48,407 bases of DNA, taken from Rhodopirellula sp. Its GTDB lineage: Bacteria > Planctomycetota > Planctomycetia > Pirellulales > Pirellulaceae. Positions 35,660 to 44,585 of this stretch are shown here, piece after piece; the stretch's first letter is position 1; each line of letters opens with the position of its first letter. The stretch covers positions 29,150 to 77,556 of the forward strand of contig NZVD01000085.1 in NCBI GenBank assembly GCA_002701385.1. Direction: 5' to 3'. The notes beneath the pieces are model-generated. The model ran no database searches. It had not been told where the DNA came from and was given only the letters and a program-made list of their open reading frames with translations. Position numbers and translations under genes: made by a program.

Positions 35660-35787
35660 CACAGAGATTGGAAAGGATAGATTTTTGCTTCTAGTTCGCA
35701 TAACCCACCTTCTGGCTATCAGTGGCTAGGAAATACAGTGCTATAATGAACGAAACATCTTGTGGACTATCAATAAAAGAGAAAAGT

Positions 35788-37245
35788 ATGCACGGACAAA
35801 CAGATGTGGATTTCGACATTCCCATTGAACTGATTCATGAACTCCAGCAGATCATTGGTTCAGACGGAGTACTGACTGCGCATTCAGATCGTATGGTGTT
35901 CGAATGCGATGGATTTACGATCGAGAAGAATTGTCCGGATGTCGTGGTTTTTCCAACATCTTCTGAACAGATTGCAGATGTTATAAAAGCCTGCAACCGG
36001 CACAAGATACCATTTCTTCCACGAGGTGCCGGGACTAGCCTGGCAGGCGGCACACTACCGGTTGGCGGCGGTGTGATGTTGGTTCTAACCCGGATGAAAG
36101 AGATCGAAGAGATCAGTTTACGGGATCGATACGCCGTGGTTCAGCCTGGTGTCGTTAATATCCGGCTTACCCAGGCGCTTAAGGGCACTGGCTACCACTA
36201 TGCGCCGGACCCCTCGAGCCAGGGAGCCTGTACAATCGGCGGTAATGTGGCGACCAATTCAGGCGGGCCTCATACGCTGAAATACGGCGTCACGGTGAAT
36301 CATGTATTAGGCGTCGAAGCAGTCAGTTCGGATGGTGAAATTTTTCGTTTGGGAGGACCCAACGCGGATCCGAGCGGATTGGATTTAGCAGGAGTAATGG
36401 TCGGAAGTGAAGGGACGCTGGCCGTCGTGACACGTGTTTGGGTGCGGTTAACACGTAACCCTGAAGGTGTCCGTACTTTACTTGGTGTCTTCGATAGTGT
36501 CGATGATGCGACCAATGCGATTAGCGCTATTATTGGTGCAGGAATTATTCCAGCAGCATTGGAAATGGTGGATCACGATATCATGGTCGCTCTGGAAGAG
36601 GCATTTCAGTTTGGGTTCCCACTAGATGCAGAAGCAATCCTGATTATTGAAGTCGATGGAATCGAAGCGGGACTAAATGCACAGCGTGATCAGATAATTG
36701 AAATTTGTCAGAAGATAGGAGCGCGGGAGGTCCGGCAGGCAGAAAACGAAAAACATCGACAGCAGTTGTGGAAAGCTCGTAAGCAAGCCTTTGGTGCTAT
36801 TGGTCGCCTGGCGTCAAGTTTAGTGACTCAGGATGGTGTCGTACCTCGGACGCAGATTCCTCAAATGTATAAGACTATTATGGAAATTGGGAAGAAGTAC
36901 GATATTCAGATCGTTAATGTCTTCCACGCAGGGGATGGTAATATCCATCCGGTAATGCTATTTGATGAACGTGACCCTTCTCAAACCGAACGCGTTTTAA
37001 AGGCAGGCGGAGAAATTCTTCAGGCTTGTTTGGATGCCGGCGGAAGTGTTACCGGAGAGCACGGAATCGGTGTTGAAAAAGTAAAGTTCATGAAACAAAT
37101 GTTTAGTGAAGATGATTTGGATGTGATGTCGGCACTACGTTCTGCTTTTAATCCCAATAATCGCCTGAGTCCGGATAAGATGTTGCCGACCGCCGGCGCC
37201 TGTGGACATGAAAGAAAAGCACCCAGCAAAATGGTGGCGATGTAG
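35788..37245 (+). CDS. glcD: FAD-linked 2-hydroxyacid oxidase, GlcD-type subunit
   Basis: 485 residues from the ATG at 35788, which follows AAAGAGAAAAG; alternatives are ATG 35746 and GTG 35722. The PP-loop FAD domain shows FLPRGAGTSLAGGTLPVGGG and GACTIGGNVATNSGGPHTLKYG. The FAD-oxidase C-terminal domain holds NVFHAGDGNIHPVMLFDERD and GGSVTGEHGIGVEKVKFM. GlcD is the catalytic flavin subunit of glycolate (or D-lactate/2-hydroxyacid) oxidase. It is followed closely by glcE and glcF. Confidence 0.92.
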   Translation: MHGQTDVDFDIPIELIHELQQIIGSDGVLTAHSDRMVFECDGFTIEKNCPDVVVFPTSSEQIADVIKACNRHKIPFLPRGAGTSLAGGTLPVGGGVMLVLTRMKEIEEISLRDRYAVVQPGVVNIRLTQALKGTGYHYAPDPSSQGACTIGGNVATNSGGPHTLKYGVTVNHVLGVEAVSSDGEIFRLGGPNADPSGLDLAGVMVGSEGTLAVVTRVWVRLTRNPEGVRTLLGVFDSVDDATNAISAIIGAGIIPAALEMVDHDIMVALEEAFQFGFPLDAEAILIIEVDGIEAGLNAQRDQIIEICQKIGAREVRQAENEKHRQQLWKARKQAFGAIGRLASSLVTQDGVVPRTQIPQMYKTIMEIGKKYDIQIVNVFHAGDGNIHPVMLFDERDPSQTERVLKAGGEILQACLDAGGSVTGEHGIGVEKVKFMKQMFSEDDLDVMSALRSAFNPNNRLSPDKMLPTAGACGHERKAPSKMVAM

Positions 37246-37280
37246 AAGCCCGCTCAAGACCTCTTAATGAGATACCGAAA

Positions 37281-38513
37281 GTGTCAGATTCAATTTATCA
37301 ATTACCTATTATCCAGACTTTGGAACCATCCTCAGCAGAGGAATTAGCGGCTCATGTGAAGCAGGGTTTCGAACAGGCGATGGCGATGTATCCCCTAGGG
37401 GGCCAGACATCGCTGCACTATGGATTGGCACCCCAAACAGAAGGCTGGGGAATTTCCACCGCGGGCGTCAGCCAAATCGTTGATTTTCCAGTGAAAGACC
37501 TAACGATTACGGTTGGAACCGGTATCACAATGGGCTTCTTAAAGCAGACTCTTGCAAACGAAGGGCTCATGCTTCCTTTAGATGTGCCTCAGCAGGAGTC
37601 GGCGACGCTAGGGGGAGTGATTGCCACGAATACTAACGGCCCGCGACGATTCGGGCTTGGGACGGTGCGAGATTATGTGATTGGAATTGAAGCGGTCAAT
37701 GGCAAAGGGCAACTGTTTCACGGCGGAGGACGTGTCGTAAAAAACGTTGCCGGATATGACTTTTGTAAATTGCTTACCGGGTCGATGGGGACTTTGGGAG
37801 TGATTACTCAGGCAACGGTCAAGTTGAAGCCGATTCCGGAATCGGCTTCAACAGTTGTGGTCGCCTTAGATGATTCAGATATTGCTGACGGTTGTATTTC
37901 GATGTTACTTGAGTCACCGACTGTTCCGATTGCCGTCGAGCTTTTAGCAGGTGAGGCCTGGTCAGAACTTACAGGGGTTTCTAGATCGAAATTGATTCTG
38001 GCGATCCAGCTTGCCGGTACCGAGGTTGAAGTTGCCTGGAGCCGGGAGCGATTAATTGGCGATCTAAAACGCAAAGGAGCTCCGGGAGCTCTAATATTAG
38101 ATGGGGAATCGCACACGCGTCTATGGAACTCAATTCAGGAATTCCCTGCAGGTGCGCGTGAATTGACGATACAGGTTAAAACCGTTTCCAGTGGTACGTT
38201 ACCCGTGATCGAGAAATGTTTACAAGTTGATCCCACCTGCACAATCCAGTCAGATGCTGGCAATGGAATTGTTACAATCGGTTTTGCGGAAGTACCTGCT
38301 GGTGGAGTCGCTGGTATCGCGATTACTGAATTAGGGCCTGTCGCTTCTAATTTTCACGGGCATGTCGAAACGTTAGGTTGCAGCAACCCTGAAGAATTAA
38401 CTATGGGAACAATGTGGGGGCAATTGTCAGGTCCTCAGTGGCTACATAATCGAATTCGAGAACAGTTTGACCCTCTTGGATTACTCAATCCTGGGAGGTT
38501 TGTATACTCATGA
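37281..38513 (+). CDS. glcE: FAD-binding glycolate oxidase subunit GlcE
   Basis: 410 residues. The FAD_binding_4 domain is recognisable at MAMYPLGGQTSLHYGL, ATLGGVIATNTNGPRRFGLGTVRDYVIGIE and GRVVKNVAGYDFCKLLTGSMGTLGVIT, the typical GlcE pattern. It ends with LLNPGRFVYS. The start is GTG at 37281, 35 nt after glcD. Its last four bases (ATGA) overlap the glcF start, so translation of the two is coupled. It acts as part of the GlcDEF membrane-associated complex. Confidence 0.9.
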   Translation: MSDSIYQLPIIQTLEPSSAEELAAHVKQGFEQAMAMYPLGGQTSLHYGLAPQTEGWGISTAGVSQIVDFPVKDLTITVGTGITMGFLKQTLANEGLMLPLDVPQQESATLGGVIATNTNGPRRFGLGTVRDYVIGIEAVNGKGQLFHGGGRVVKNVAGYDFCKLLTGSMGTLGVITQATVKLKPIPESASTVVVALDDSDIADGCISMLLESPTVPIAVELLAGEAWSELTGVSRSKLILAIQLAGTEVEVAWSRERLIGDLKRKGAPGALILDGESHTRLWNSIQEFPAGARELTIQVKTVSSGTLPVIEKCLQVDPTCTIQSDAGNGIVTIGFAEVPAGGVAGIAITELGPVASNFHGHVETLGCSNPEELTMGTMWGQLSGPQWLHNRIREQFDPLGLLNPGRFVYS

Positions 38514-39868
38514 GCGAACAAAAAATGCTAGACGTGTCGCAGGATACGAACGAGTCTTCTTTGCCGAACTTATCATTTAATCCCGGTGAGAAGATCGATT
38601 ACGAATATTTTCTGGATTGCGTACATTGTGGCCTTTGTACTCAAGCCTGTCCTACTTATGTAATGACAGGTAACGAAAATGATTCTCCCAGAGGCCGTAT
38701 CTATCTGATGCGTGCTGTTACCGATGGGCGTGTCGACCTTAATCAAAACGTGCGCCGGCATTTGGAGTTGTGTCTGGACTGTCGGAGTTGCGAGACGGCA
38801 TGCCCGTCTGGTGTGCAGTACGGTCGATTGATCGAACCATTTCGATTGGAGATGGAAAAGGAGATCGATACGGAACGGAAGACGGATGATTGGTTCCATA
38901 AGTACATTTTGTTTGGACTGTTCCCATATCCCAAACGGCTGCGAAAAGCACTTAGCTTTGCAAAAATTGCCCAACGACTAAAACTCGATTCATTAGTGCT
39001 GGCGACGGGCTTATGGAAATTGCTGCCAGCTCGGCTGGGACGTATGGCCACACTATTACCAAAGATTCGAAAAGCCGATGGTAAGTTGGAACATGTCATG
39101 CCAGCCATTGGCAAACGTCGAGCTCGAGTGGCATTGTTTACTGGTTGTGTTCAGAGCGAAGTTTTTGCGCAAACTAACTATGCCACTGCGCATGTGCTGC
39201 AACAAAATGGTTGTGATGTCGTGATTCCCGAATCTCAGGGGTGTTGTGGTGCGATTCACTATCACACCGGTAGTGAAGCGCCGGCAGTGGCCATGGCGGC
39301 TCAGAATATAGCAGCTTTTGACCGGGATGATATCGATGCCATTATTATCAACGTCGCCGGATGTGGCTCTATGCTGAAGGATTACGCCCATCTATGGAAT
39401 GATGAGGAATCGGCCGATGCACGATCTGGCTTTGCATCCAAAGTAAAGGATGTCCATGAATTTCTCGATGAACTTGGGTTTATTCCTCCTAAGGCACCAC
39501 TGGATGTCAAAGTGACGTACCATGATGCCTGTCATCTGGCACATGCTCAGAAAGTGACACAGCAACCCCGAAATCTAATTCGCCAGATTCCCGGTGTTGA
39601 GTTAATTGATCTGCTAGAGAGTGATATGTGTTGTGGTGCAGCGGGGACTTACAATCTAACCGAAACAGATATGGCCGATCAGCTTAGTCAGCGTAAGCTT
39701 GGTAATATTCGTGATACCGGTGCCAGTATTGTGCTCACCGCAAATTCCGGATGTCTGATGCAAATTGACCGGGAACGCCGAGTTCAGGATGAGAGTGTCC
39801 GAGTGATGCACCCAATGGATTTAATTTACTGTGCCTATACGCACCAATCTCCCTACGATTATTGCTAG
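38510..39868 (+). CDS. glcF: Glycolate oxidase iron-sulfur subunit GlcF
   Basis: 452 residues. Two [4Fe-4S] motifs lie near the N-terminus: CVHCGLCTQACP (Cys 37, 40, 43, 47) and CLDCRSCETACP. Two CCG domains follow (GCVQSEVF...GCCGAIHYHTG and CHLAHAQ...CCGAAGTYN), typical of heterodisulfide-reductase-like quinone-linked subunits. It passes electrons from the flavin subunits to the membrane. It overlaps glcE by 4 nt. Confidence 0.93.
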   Translation: MSEQKMLDVSQDTNESSLPNLSFNPGEKIDYEYFLDCVHCGLCTQACPTYVMTGNENDSPRGRIYLMRAVTDGRVDLNQNVRRHLELCLDCRSCETACPSGVQYGRLIEPFRLEMEKEIDTERKTDDWFHKYILFGLFPYPKRLRKALSFAKIAQRLKLDSLVLATGLWKLLPARLGRMATLLPKIRKADGKLEHVMPAIGKRRARVALFTGCVQSEVFAQTNYATAHVLQQNGCDVVIPESQGCCGAIHYHTGSEAPAVAMAAQNIAAFDRDDIDAIIINVAGCGSMLKDYAHLWNDEESADARSGFASKVKDVHEFLDELGFIPPKAPLDVKVTYHDACHLAHAQKVTQQPRNLIRQIPGVELIDLLESDMCCGAAGTYNLTETDMADQLSQRKLGNIRDTGASIVLTANSGCLMQIDRERRVQDESVRVMHPMDLIYCAYTHQSPYDYC

Positions 39869-40001
39869 GCGTTCGGGTCTTAGTGGCACCTGGCTAGCTA
39901 GGAGTCGGTTGCGTAGATGTGTAGACACTTGCATGCCGCGGTGTTTCTTTTCTTCAAAAAAGGCCTTGCTCCCGAAATTACTATTGAAATTTGACTCTAA
40001 A

Positions 40002-40032
40002 TTTACATGATAGTGTTTGTAGATCATGTAAA
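40002..40032. promoter_or_regulatory. 10-bp perfect inverted repeat, candidate operator
   Basis: TTTACATGAT (40002-40011) and ATCATGTAAA (40023-40032) are perfectly complementary with an 11-nt spacer. Half-site centres are 21 bp apart, two helical turns, as expected for a dimeric regulator. The left arm overlaps the possible -10, which would suit repression. Confidence 0.55.
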
Positions 40033-40105
40033 CGCAACATGATGAACTGACGACCGTGAAGAAGTTATCTGGTACAAAGGTGACAGAAACGGAAGCTGTA
40101 TTGTG

Positions 40106-40117
40106 AAAGGAGGTGAT
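40106..40117 (+). promoter_or_regulatory. Exceptionally strong Shine-Dalgarno
   Basis: AAAGGAGGTGAT is complementary over 12 nt to the canonical 3' end of 16S rRNA. The core GGAGG is followed by 6 nt and then GTG at 40120. This is by far the best ribosome-binding site I found in the window, which otherwise uses weak ones. Confidence 0.8.
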
Positions 40118-40119
40118 TT

Positions 40120-40164
40120 GTGGACCATTACGACTGTACGAATTTAAGAGGTGGAAACGCCTAA
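40120..40164 (+). CDS. Candidate 14-residue leader peptide
   Basis: GTG at 40120 begins a short frame, MDHYDCTNLRGGNA, ending at TAA 40162-40164. It is backed by the strong Shine-Dalgarno at 40106-40117 with ideal spacing. Its stop overlaps the next ATG as TAATG, and its last codons lie in the first stem of the leader RNA. A translated leader peptide controlling attenuation is the simplest reading; no run of identical codons is present to reveal a sensed amino acid. Translation is inferred, not shown. Confidence 0.5.
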   Translation: MDHYDCTNLRGGNA

Positions 40165-40265
40165 TGCCAATCGGCGGATTGCCCGCATGGGCGTCCACCC
40201 ACCTGAGACCGGTGCCGTGTCAACGGATGGATCAGGTCCAATTAATGGTGCAACCGTGTCGATGA
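40164..40265 (+). CDS. Candidate second small leader ORF (33 residues)
   Basis: ATG at 40164 overlaps the stop of the first leader ORF (TAATG), allowing re-initiation. The frame starts MPIGGLPAWASTHLRP, has two Cys and ends at TGA 40263-40265, within the terminator loop region. It may be a real microprotein, or chance coding of a structured RNA: the same DNA is also open in another frame. Confidence 0.3.
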   Translation: MPIGGLPAWASTHLRPVPCQRMDQVQLMVQPCR

Positions 40266-40295
40266 CTCATCCAGTCTCGGCACGGTTGTTTTTTT
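40251..40295 (+). terminator. Intrinsic terminator 32 nt before the dehydratase ATG
   Basis: CAACCGTG (40251-40258) pairs with CACGGTTG (40281-40288); an inner GACT/AGTC helix (40264-40267, 40273-40276) extends it. Seven T follow (40289-40295). Its place inside a leader with no other gene end nearby argues for regulated attenuation. Confidence 0.85.
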
Positions 40296-40327
40296 ATCTT
40301 TACCAACAAGTTTCCTATGCTGAATCC

Positions 40328-41428
40328 ATGAAGATCCAATCCATCGCTAGTGATTTGTTCTATATCCCCCTGCCCGAGGTCCTCACAGACTCTACCCACG
40401 GTGTGATGGAGCATTTCTCGCTCGTGACTGTCCGCATCAGAGATAACCAAGGTCTGGAAGGGCTTGGGTACACCTATACTGTTGGTAAAACCGGCGGTGC
40501 AGCTATCCTCTCTATGCTGGAGTTCGACATCAAACGTTTGCTATTGGGCGAAGACCCCAATGAGATCGATCGTATTTTCGACAAGCTTTGGTGGGCGTTG
40601 CATTACGTCGGACGTGGTGGAATTGCATCGTTTGCGATCTCCGCGGTCGATATCGCGTTGTGGGATTTAAAGTCCAAACGAGCCAACCAACCCCTCTGGA
40701 AGTTTCTCGGAGGTGTAGATGATCAGGTCAAAGCTTACGCGGGAGGTATCGACCTGCAGTTACCGATAGATCGTCTTGAGGCACAAACACAAGACAATCT
40801 TGATCGTGGCTTTAGAGCGATCAAGATGAAAGTTGGTCGTGACAAACTGGAAGAGGATGTTCAGCGAGTCGCCGCGATGCGAGATTTTTTGGGGCCGGAT
40901 TTACCACTAATGGTGGACGCTAATATGCGTTGGTCCGTCAATCAGGCCACCGAAGCGGCCAAAGCCTTTGCAGATTACAATATTTACTGGCTGGAGGAAC
41001 CCGTCATCCCTGAGGACTTCCAAGGTCATCGACGGGTATTGGTAGAAGGGGGGATACCAATTGCCAGTGGCGAAAATCTACATACCATTTATGAGTTTGA
41101 AAAACTAATCACTGCCGGAGGGGTTTCATACCCGGAGCCTGATGTCGCCAATGTTGGTGGCATCACGATCTGGCGTAAAGTTGCGCAAATGGCAGAGCAG
41201 GCAGGACTGCCTGTAACATCTCACGGCGTACATGATCTGCATGTCCACTTGTTAGCCGCCGCACCCAACGCATCTTTTTTGGAAGCCCATGGGTTTGGCC
41301 TGGAAAGATTCTTAGAGTATCCACTTCAAATCGAGGAGGGGTTTGCTACTGCTCCCTCACGTACCGGGCATGGGGTCTGTCTGGACTGGGATGCATTAGA
41401 ACATCATCGAGGTCCCAACCTGAATTAA
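40328..41428 (+). CDS. Mandelate racemase/muconate lactonizing enzyme superfamily dehydratase
   Basis: 366 residues from the ATG at 40328. The frame is open further upstream (GTG 40151), but that part crosses the leader RNA and terminator. Enolase-superfamily residues are in place: Lys166-x-Lys168 (AIKMKVG), metal ligands Asp197 (MVDANMRW), Glu223 (WLEEP) and Glu249 (ASGENLH), and the His299-Asp272 dyad (TSHGVHDLH, PEPDVANVGG). This is the mandelate-racemase subgroup pattern, usually acid-sugar dehydratases. The exact acid sugar is not deducible. It may feed a 2-keto acid pathway, fitting the neighbouring hydroxyacid oxidases. No clear Shine-Dalgarno is present. Confidence 0.88.
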   Translation: MKIQSIASDLFYIPLPEVLTDSTHGVMEHFSLVTVRIRDNQGLEGLGYTYTVGKTGGAAILSMLEFDIKRLLLGEDPNEIDRIFDKLWWALHYVGRGGIASFAISAVDIALWDLKSKRANQPLWKFLGGVDDQVKAYAGGIDLQLPIDRLEAQTQDNLDRGFRAIKMKVGRDKLEEDVQRVAAMRDFLGPDLPLMVDANMRWSVNQATEAAKAFADYNIYWLEEPVIPEDFQGHRRVLVEGGIPIASGENLHTIYEFEKLITAGGVSYPEPDVANVGGITIWRKVAQMAEQAGLPVTSHGVHDLHVHLLAAAPNASFLEAHGFGLERFLEYPLQIEEGFATAPSRTGHGVCLDWDALEHHRGPNLN

Positions 41429-41712: not shown

Positions 41713-42432
41713 ATGAGTATTAACCGCACTCTTCCAAGACAGCGTCCTGCAGAGAAATTAAAAGGATACCAATCTTGGAGAAACCTAGCTTTCCTTCACT
41801 GGGAAGTCCCTGTGAAAGAATTAGAAGCCGTGCTGCCTGAAGGGCTTCAGCCGGACCTTTTTCAGGACAAAGCATATGTAGGATTAGTCCCTTTTGAAAT
41901 GAAGAACATAAGGCCTGCTTGGTGCCCTAAAGCTTTAGGCTTTAACTTTCTAGAAACCAACGTCAGAACTTACGTGCTTCATAAGAACGAACCGGGGGTA
42001 TTCTTTTTTTCGCTGGATGCTAGTTCATTGACGGCCGTTAAAATTGCGAGGTGGATTTGGCACCTCCCGTATTTCCACTCTCATATGGAGTTTTCGAATG
42101 AACAAATGACCTATGAGTACAGTTTGAAACGGGGCAACAATATCGAATCGAATATCAAAATAAAGGTCGGCCAGCCAATACCTCCAAGCCAACCGGACTC
42201 ATTGGAATATTTCCTTTTAGAGCGATATCTACTATTCACTCAATTAAGGGGGAGAATATTGCGTGGCCAAGTCCATCATGTCCCGTATCCCACCCGTAGC
42301 GCAAGTTTAATCGGCTTCGAGGATCAGTTATTGGAAGTCAATGGATTTACGGCACTAAATACATCACCGGATCTTGTACATTTTTCTACCGGAGTCGATG
42401 TGGAAATCTATTCGCTTAAACGAACCAATTAA
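41713..42432 (+). CDS. YqjF-like DUF2071 protein
   Basis: 239 residues. The start NLAFLHWEVPVKELEAVLPEGLQPDLFQDKAYVGLVPFEM and the block FLETNVRTYVLHKNEPGVFFFSLDASS are typical of the DUF2071/YqjF family, a beta-rich acetoacetate-decarboxylase-like fold. It has no visible signal or membrane segment. Biochemical function is unknown for the family. ATG at 41713 follows TAGGA. It stands alone, 179 nt before the next gene. Confidence 0.8.
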   Translation: MSINRTLPRQRPAEKLKGYQSWRNLAFLHWEVPVKELEAVLPEGLQPDLFQDKAYVGLVPFEMKNIRPAWCPKALGFNFLETNVRTYVLHKNEPGVFFFSLDASSLTAVKIARWIWHLPYFHSHMEFSNEQMTYEYSLKRGNNIESNIKIKVGQPIPPSQPDSLEYFLLERYLLFTQLRGRILRGQVHHVPYPTRSASLIGFEDQLLEVNGFTALNTSPDLVHFSTGVDVEIYSLKRTN

Positions 42433-43316: not shown

Positions 43317-44585
43317 ATGAGCGATCAATCCAGTACGAGCAGAAAAAGTCTTTGGATCGCTGCGGCAGCAGCTTTCTCTGTTTACTTCTGCATGTATGCG
43401 TTTCGAAAACCGTTTACAGCAGCAGCCTTTGAAGGCAAAGAGGTTTTCAACAATGAATTGAAGTCGATGCTGATTATTTCTCAGCTGATTGGCTACATGA
43501 CTTCCAAGTTTGTGGGGGTCAGACTCGTCTCCGAGCTTAACCGCAAATATCGCGCATTAGCGATCGTTGGATTAATTGTCTTTTCCGAACTTGCCTTAGT
43601 TCTCTTTGCAATTCTTCCTGATGATTACAAATTGCTTGCCATGTTTCTGAACGGTTTGCCGCTGGGTATGGTCTTCGGCTTTGTCCTTTCGTTCCTGGAA
43701 GGCCGTACCACAACCGAAGCTTTATCAGCCGCACTTTGTGCAAGCTTCATCATGTCCTCGGGTGTAGTTAAATCTATTGGTCAATGGTTAATTCAGTCTA
43801 AAAATGTGGGTGAATTCCAAATGCCCATGGTCACCGGTTTGATATTCCTGCTGCCATTACTTTTCTCTGTCTGGGTTCTCCAGAAAACTCCTCCTCCTAG
43901 TACACTCGACGTTCAGGCCCGAAACAAACGTTCCACCATGAACAAAGGTGATCGTTGGAACTTTTTTGCGGCCTATTGGCCCGGGCTTTTATTACTATTT
44001 ATTGTGTACGTCACGTTAACGATCATTCGTACCTTCCGGGATGACTTTGGTGTAGAAATCTGGCAGGGCTTGGGGGTCAGTGATAAACCGTCCGTTTACG
44101 CGAGTTCCGAGACAATCGTGATGGTAATCGTAACGATGCTGAACGCGGTAGCCATCTATATGCGAAATAACCTCCACGCGCTTCGCGTAACGTTTATCAT
44201 CATGACTCTGGCATTTGGGCTTTTGATCTGTTCAACGTTTATCCAGAATCACGGCGGAATTACGCCGTTGTTTTACATGGTACTTTGTGGGATTGGACTT
44301 TACATTCCATACGTTGCCTTTCACACCACCGTCTTCGAAAGAATTGTCTCTGCATCGCCCTTAAGAGGTAATCTTGTTTTTTTAATGTATCTAGCCGATT
44401 CGATTGGATACCTCGGTTATGTCGTTCTATTATCTGTTAAACCGTTCTTTGAATCTTCAACCAATAAATTAGCCCTGTTTCAAAATATACTCTACACTCT
44501 GGCTGGTTTTTCAATCCTTTGCCTTATCATCGCGGCCATCTATTTCCAAAACCGGCTCTCCAATAAAGAGGCTTTGAGACGTTGA
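43317..44585 (+). CDS. DUF5690/MFS-like membrane transporter, probable phosphonate importer
   Basis: 422 residues with about 12 hydrophobic segments. The opening FSVYFCMYAFRKPFTAAAFEG and FVGVRLVSELNRKYRA are DUF5690 signatures; the family is a divergent branch of the major facilitator superfamily. ATG at 43317. It is the only transporter in the phosphonate cluster, so import of 2-aminoethylphosphonate or a related organophosphonate is the natural inference, but its substrate is not proven. 41 nt separate it from the dehydrogenase gene. Confidence 0.82.
   Translation: MSDQSSTSRKSLWIAAAAAFSVYFCMYAFRKPFTAAAFEGKEVFNNELKSMLIISQLIGYMTSKFVGVRLVSELNRKYRALAIVGLIVFSELALVLFAILPDDYKLLAMFLNGLPLGMVFGFVLSFLEGRTTTEALSAALCASFIMSSGVVKSIGQWLIQSKNVGEFQMPMVTGLIFLLPLLFSVWVLQKTPPPSTLDVQARNKRSTMNKGDRWNFFAAYWPGLLLLFIVYVTLTIIRTFRDDFGVEIWQGLGVSDKPSVYASSETIVMVIVTMLNAVAIYMRNNLHALRVTFIIMTLAFGLLICSTFIQNHGGITPLFYMVLCGIGLYIPYVAFHTTVFERIVSASPLRGNLVFLMYLADSIGYLGYVVLLSVKPFFESSTNKLALFQNILYTLAGFSILCLIIAAIYFQNRLSNKEALRR

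Follow-up and report, generated by a model that had tools for sequence, protein, structure and literature searches.

The window analysed here, a stretch of 48,407 nucleotides from a Rhodopirellula sp. genome, holds a putative structured RNA directly upstream of a dehydratase gene (MR_MLE, enolase superfamily), and the question raised by this locus is whether that RNA is a leader of the dehydratase or a gene in its own right. The initial annotation had proposed an attenuator, a riboswitch sensing a sugar acid or a leader peptide system. The letters it described were all present in the window; the true upstream edge of the element lies beyond the position it gave, a promoter-like site and a 5' hairpin being included. 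The resulting block of ~320 bp (window positions ~39974-40295) comprises, in this order, the promoter-like site, the 5' hairpin, an extended Shine-Dalgarno, a 14-codon ORF (ORF1), a three-stem junction and a terminator, located as follows.

39984-40011, plus strand: sigma-70-like promoter site, with -35 TTGAAA (39984-39989), -10 CATGAT (40006-40011) and a spacer of 16
40018-40295, plus strand: predicted transcript of ~280 nt, beginning immediately downstream of the -10 and finishing with the T-run, as given by the promoter and terminator positions
40023-40043, plus strand: 5' hairpin ATCATGT-AAACGCA-ACATGAT, with a conserved loop around AACGCA
40105-40117, plus strand: extended Shine-Dalgarno GAAAGGAGGTGAT, complementary to the canonical 3' end of 16S rRNA
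40120-40164, plus strand: micro-ORF1, GTG start, MDHYDCTNLRGGNA-stop, 14 codons, stop TAA
40150-40154 and 40195-40199, plus strand: stem P1, GGTGG/CCACC, covarying in the alignment
40158-40161 and 40190-40193, plus strand: stem P2, CGCC/GGCG, covarying in the alignment
40172-40177, plus strand: hairpin P3, C[GGCG]G loop, covarying in the alignment
40164-40265, plus strand: ORF2, 33 codons, ATG to TGA, overlapping the ORF1 stop (TAATG), not conserved
40251-40295, plus strand: intrinsic terminator, hairpin 40251-40288 (-23.4 kcal/mol) and seven T at 40289-40295

A search of relatives returned 1197 of 1200 bases identical to the window, at the same place, in G006, a 96% match over window positions 39975-40294 in G004 and an 86% match over 39974-40295 in G012, the last two both ending in the terminator T-run; G253 resembles G012 at the block. 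Conservation runs up to the T-run and no further, and the flanks are unrelated loci. By names read off translations, the block is flanked by protein-kinase-like and Gfo/Idh-like genes in G004, and by M81-peptidase-like and DUF1549-like genes in G012 and G253; the DUF1549- and DUF1080-like neighbours in these genomes are presumably typical planctomycete gene content. In G002 the element is cut by a contig end. Comparison of these loci shows that the segment behaves as an independent, putative RNA gene, usually single-copy and with no fixed gene neighbourhood.

The intrinsic terminator described before the dehydratase is real and ends 32 nt before the dehydratase ATG (40328); a simple terminator scan of the window returned no terminator (0 found), thus missing this hairpin. 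A hairpin directly before a T-run was detected in 44 of 55 family loci, 42 of these at -17 kcal/mol or below; none was found by the script in the other 11, which include one locus truncated at a contig end and several whose T-run is spaced from a hairpin. The second small ORF was open in the window as described, but is not conserved: only six of 55 loci retain an ATG that overlaps the stop of ORF1, and the frame is truncated in G012 and G253; we therefore rejected it as a functional ORF. Similarly, the two copies of CCGTGTC are present (40215-40221 and 40254-40260), but the first is altered in G012 and G253.

A cis-acting attenuator or riboswitch of the dehydratase agrees with the terminator standing immediately before that gene in G000, G006 and G002; however, in G004, G012 and G253 the block has unrelated genes at its sides, and the element and the dehydratase are unlinked elsewhere and within G012 itself, where the dehydratase ortholog (80% identity) is on a contig other than that of the block, with an upstream ORF ending 10 nt ahead of its ATG, and the sole model match is on contig C179. 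Moreover, the next ORF of 90 aa or longer (counting mechanical ORFs rather than gene calls) was found on the same strand in 26 of the 55 family loci, the window among them, on the opposite strand in 27 and was absent in two, that is, its strand is random. No neighbour family recurs widely (largest group, six of 55 loci), and a conserved same-strand downstream gene, as an attenuator or riboswitch leader needs, was not found among these loci. Together with the lack of conservation of ORF2, these results speak against the attenuator proposed earlier; we rejected a dehydratase leader and consider cis regulation of this gene highly improbable. An N-terminal extension of the dehydratase was also considered, its frame being open upstream across ORF2, the junction and the terminator region (425 aa from the GTG at 40151; 40151-41428). 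In L019 the same frame is open for 86 codons with no dehydratase after it, and the extension was rejected because the block exists without that gene. No dehydratase relatives were found in viral contigs.

As to the surroundings of the dehydratase, three same-strand genes at window positions 35722-39868 resemble a glycolate-oxidase set: Pfam assigns them FAD-binding/FAD-oxidase_C, FAD_binding_4 and 4Fe-4S with CCG domains, and we take them to be GlcD, GlcE and GlcF. Other neighbouring genes, at 41713-42432 and 43317-44585, are of the DUF2071 and DUF5690 types.

The Shine-Dalgarno of ORF1 is unusually long: AAAGGAGGTGAT occupies 40106-40117, the complementarity to the 16S 3' end amounts to 12 nt, and the whole Shine-Dalgarno/start segment reads GAAAGGAGGTGATTTGTG; the 16S 3' end used here is the one we take to be canonical. 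ORF1 was compared among 55 loci, each from a different genome, and every one of them has a suitably spaced GTG or TTG that begins an ORF of 12-15 codons (13 codons in 44 loci, 14 in six, 12 in three and 15 in two). Starts were GTG in 49 loci and TTG in six, with no ATG, and stops were TAA in 24, TAG in 21 and TGA in 10. The distance from start to P1 is 24, 27, 30 or 33 nt and divisible by three in 54/54 rows of the alignment (A5), whereas that from P1 to the loop, mostly outside ORF1, is spread over the three frame classes (30/12/12). This difference shows selection on the reading frame of ORF1, its translation being predicted. The family consensus peptide is approximately M-x-Y-x-C-T-S-Q-R-G-G-x-[A/P]-stop (~13 residues), and among 43 ORFs of 13 codons the core residues C5, S7, R9, G10 and G11 were kept in 42, 40, 39, 43 and 40, respectively. 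R9 is encoded by CGA (24), CGG (11) or AGA (4), whereas C5 is always TGT and S7 always AGC, and so part of the conservation of ORF1 is at the RNA level. Thus, the strong Shine-Dalgarno and the 14-codon ORF reported earlier were borne out, and the suggested check of codon-level conservation was positive for ORF1, frame and residues being kept across the 55 loci.

In 47 of 54 loci, the native codons 5-9 pair with the ribosome-binding site worse than at least half of the synonymous sets, with no locus individually extreme in this pairing and none in the best 5%. The ribosome-binding site therefore seems to be kept open by codon choice, as far as predicted pairing can tell, and a hairpin gating the site through these codons, which would require the opposite tendency, was rejected.

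The last codons of ORF1 form the 5' arms of the three-stem junction. Paired cells in P1-P3 made up 90.7% on A5 versus 82.4 in shuffles, and 12 of 16 pairs were changed on both sides versus 7.1 in shuffles. The covariation score on A5, an alignment fitted to a model built from five of its own sequences, which favours the structure, was 0.321 versus 0.179 in shuffled alignments; none of 500 shuffles scored as high, and structures slid along A5 reached at most 0.103. The covariation sought by the initial annotation was thus found in the stems. Folding of the 201-nt stretch was not matched by any of 200 dinucleotide shuffles (z -3.1), a stability to which the terminator hairpin contributes much. 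Single-sequence folding of the core alone (95-111 nt) gave z values of -0.6 to -1.9 in four members, which are not exceptional, and the case for the junction stems therefore rests on comparison.

Upstream of the Shine-Dalgarno, the 5' hairpin was found in 55/55 loci, starting ~78-99 nt before it, with a stem of at least six pairs in 54 loci versus 153 of 1100 mononucleotide shuffles; with 46 distinct 5' arms among the 55 loci, the comparison shows this predicted hairpin to covary. Promoter-like matches are no commoner in the window than in shuffles, and it is the relatives that give positional support: in 50/55 loci the end of the top-scoring promoter match falls 88-108 nt upstream of the Shine-Dalgarno, TTG[CA][CA] occurs upstream in 38/55 loci versus 571/2750 shuffles, and the mean best match is 7.98/12 in the loci versus 7.17/12 in shuffles.

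The distribution of the element was studied with two covariance models, R1 (five sequences) and R2 (54 sequences). R1 matched 190 of 239 genomes of the family, representing 49 of 68 genera, at E<=0.1, and 181 of these 190 at E<=0.001; three genomes had two matches and the others one. The element is thus kept in many relatives, as the conservation check proposed earlier had asked. At E<=0.01, R2 gave matches in 159 of 296 genomes of the order, two in each of four rows, and in 45 of 324 genomes of the phylum. Twenty of the 45 come from a single further family within the class (f21), with one match each and E values from 7.5e-19 to 2.7e-8; deprived of its Shine-Dalgarno part, L123 of this family still scored 36.1 bits (E 8.7e-10). 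Outside the class, 21 genomes gave weaker matches (E 1.1e-6 to 0.0084), based largely on the Shine-Dalgarno: R2 scored L137 at 6.0 bits (E 0.018) once that part was removed. L138 and L141 have CTGTAC and a CGACGG loop in common as well.

Five of the eight other genomes of the same genus (G001, G003, G005, G007 and G008) showed no copy even with laxer filters, which, applied to 23 genomes, almost all previously matchless, yielded one match (G032, known from the order search). Though frequent, the element is thus not present everywhere; loss, divergence or relocation has occurred in this genus, and in those five genomes the element is either dispensable or very different. Among weaker DNA matches read individually, L021 and L022 are real, both keeping GAAAGGAGGTG, a GTG-started 13-codon ORF (peptides MQYVCTSQRGGSA and MNYFCTSRRGGNA) and a terminator. 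L002, L014 and L015 look like chance matches, and L003 looks like an ordinary strong Shine-Dalgarno before a longer ORF and was rejected as a copy of the element. Separately, the ~320-bp block was seen in three unrelated places in two close genera (G000, G006, G002, G004, G012 and G253; L010-L013 and L019) and had no match in the five same-genus genomes, as if it were a cassette gained, lost or moved.

The search against Rfam gave no match at gathering score in the whole window, riboswitches included, which upholds the earlier statement that no known riboswitch core is recognisable; the only match within the element at E<=1 was a trypanosomatid snoRNA on the opposite strand (E 0.046), taken as chance. 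A tmRNA (RF00023) was rejected, as the own-genome search had no match at the element: the tmRNA over the cut-off lies at G000:C8:110383-110745 (162.8 bits), and the three weaker matches also fall outside the element. The nearest Rfam family is the alphaproteobacterial sRNA CC2171 (RF01867), with which the element shares the Shine-Dalgarno/GTG segment. CC2171 carries GAAAGGAGGUGAUCCAGUG close to the 5' end, and its model includes a 3' hairpin resembling a terminator; the GAAAGGAGGUGAUCCAGUG segment, with a GUG opening a short ORF, recurs near-identically in members of our family. The peptides differ by group and are unlike that of the element (e.g. MSHCHQPL... and MSRVILERGVGTV...).

By score, the window falls outside CC2171, whose gathering threshold is 75 bits, with no match at E<=1. 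Seven loci of our family were compared with CC2171: L083 (31.6 bits) and L040 (23.2 bits) matched, and the other five had no match at E<=1; without its Shine-Dalgarno/start part L083 gave no match at E<=10, and similarity to CC2171 beyond this segment is at most putative. The exact 19-mer GAAAGGAGGTGATCCAGTG was present in at least 119 stretches of genome contigs. Among the 80 matches listed for it, 72 are by name what we take to be alphaproteobacterial, and the rest comprise two Phycisphaerales, four unplaced Proteobacteria, one Nitrosomonadales and one Deltaproteobacteria; the GTG opens an ORF of 11-33 codons at 79 of these 80 loci. When seven loci were compared with Rfam, five alphaproteobacterial or planctomycete 19-mer loci matched CC2171 and two of them passed the cut-off, namely the alphaproteobacterial L205 (91.2 bits) and L150 (88.5 bits); L163 (41.7), L137 (37.2) and L142 (37.0) scored below it, and L199 and L141 had no match at E<=0.1. 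GAAAGGAGGUGAUCCAGUG is exact in L137, L139 and L140, from other classes, and has one difference in L071 (GAAAGGAGGTGATCTAGTG). The element and CC2171 share a common design and perhaps an origin; convergence is possible, since the shared letters are the complement of what we take to be the universal rRNA 3' end. On these comparisons, the element appears to be a small RNA with a micro-ORF outside CC2171, covered by no Rfam family at threshold.

Taken together, we consider it probable, with some reserve, that the element is a stand-alone, ribosome-engaging small RNA that carries a micropeptide and acts in trans. It would be transcribed as a molecule of ~280 nt, whose extended Shine-Dalgarno, kept open, would capture 30S subunits; the ribosome would then translate the ~13-residue peptide and, when at the last codons and the stop, sit on P1 and P2 and keep the junction open, so that the RNA would have two states, ribosome-engaged and folded. 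Its action in trans could be that of a dual-function RNA (peptide plus RNA) or of a small RNA sensing the state of ribosomes, and is proposed only because there is no fixed cis target. The combination of a weak start and an extreme Shine-Dalgarno leads us to guess that retaining a ribosome counts for more than a high yield of peptide. A wider version, tentative and somewhat doubtful, would place the planctomycete RNAs and the CC2171 sRNAs in one ancient class of stand-alone, ribosome-sensing RNAs, in which a near-full complement of the 16S 3' end and a weak GTG load a ribosome onto a micro-ORF, and its presence there decides fold and trans activity.

The rival explanations overlap with this preferred one, and the probabilities attached to them do not sum to unity. 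Conservation of the frame and residues, the encoding of Arg9 by CGA, CGG and AGA and an initiation site that tends to stay open would also suit a tiny mRNA with the peptide as its sole functional product, the stems only stabilising or tuning it. Nevertheless, the stems covary (in L087 Gly11 is changed to Ser with P1 kept as GGAAG/CTTCC), the Cys and Ser codons are fixed and a conserved 5' hairpin stands outside the ORF, which makes this reading rather unlikely. A bait or sponge, in which 30S subunits would be retained through the long complementarity to the 16S 3' end and the ORF would serve merely to load them, is distinctly unlikely: the conservation of the peptide within the class exceeds what a bait needs, and titrating ribosomes would demand great abundance of one RNA species, despite the 12-nt complementarity in the window and the recurrence of a near-identical segment in RNAs from another phylum whose peptides are quite unlike this one.

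We regard as very unlikely a non-coding, antisense-type sRNA in which an anti-Shine-Dalgarno-like segment (a GATCACC hairpin or CACCU) would block target mRNAs and the ORF would be incidental, given the selection on the ORF frame. Stretches complementary to the RNA's own Shine-Dalgarno slightly exceed those of shuffles in length (5.69 versus 4.98 nt), and 18/55 loci have one of at least 6 nt located 6-16 nt after P1; however, only 10/55 loci reach p<=0.05, and the window has p 0.615. An internal anti-Shine-Dalgarno mimic was likewise set aside as modest, with p<=0.05 singly in those 10 of 55 family loci and in 9/79 19-mer loci.

Stand-alone small RNAs with a short peptide, as proposed for the element, have a counterpart in rnTrpL/peTrpL of Sinorhizobium meliloti, described as a small RNA carrying a functional 14-residue peptide (PMC7298713; PMC10117765). 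It differs in deriving from the trp attenuator before trpE and in its leaderless ATG ORF (PMC10117765), with no extended Shine-Dalgarno. The uORF leader of a DUF1127 gene in the same species is proposed to monitor ribosome availability through the binding site of the small ORF (PMC12218461); as described there, it is a cis attenuator with an ATG start, whereas the element has no fixed downstream gene, and the site-codon pairing proposed for that leader is not favoured in the element. By analogy, this leader makes the ribosome-sensing idea reasonable, without showing that it holds here. On the other side, a 2014 Caulobacter study reports that its mostly intergenic ncRNA regions were not translated (PMC4117421), which counts against translation of the possible alphaproteobacterial cousins if CC2171 is one of those regions. 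The Rhodopirellula-1 RNA motif, which the initial annotation suggested for comparison, appears in a table of a 2010 study as a candidate RNA of Proteobacteria and Planctomycetes with no Rfam number (PMC2864571); it is known here by that table entry alone, and identity with the element is neither claimed nor excluded. No description of this RNA, of its peptide or of a function for CC2171 was found in the open-licence PMC literature.

One would ordinarily assume an important role for a structured RNA gene that is usually single, occurs in most of the family genomes searched and extends over the order and to a second family of the class, and a 13-codon gene is easily overlooked by annotation; the element offers concrete conserved bases for testing in a culturable planctomycete. 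For CC2171, itself an uncharacterised sRNA of Alphaproteobacteria, the comparison suggests a micro-ORF as well. Among the 19-mer loci, RNAs of Rhodobacterales type (L142, L147, L153, L176 and similar) have MSRVILERGVGTV-like ORFs and often CACCTCC or CATCTCC downstream, a mimic of the 16S 3' end. Finally, at L205 3224-3297 (Brevundimonas), BjrC68 (RF02353; 27.5 bits, cut-off 39) overlaps the 3' part of CC2171, and the two may be parts of one RNA.
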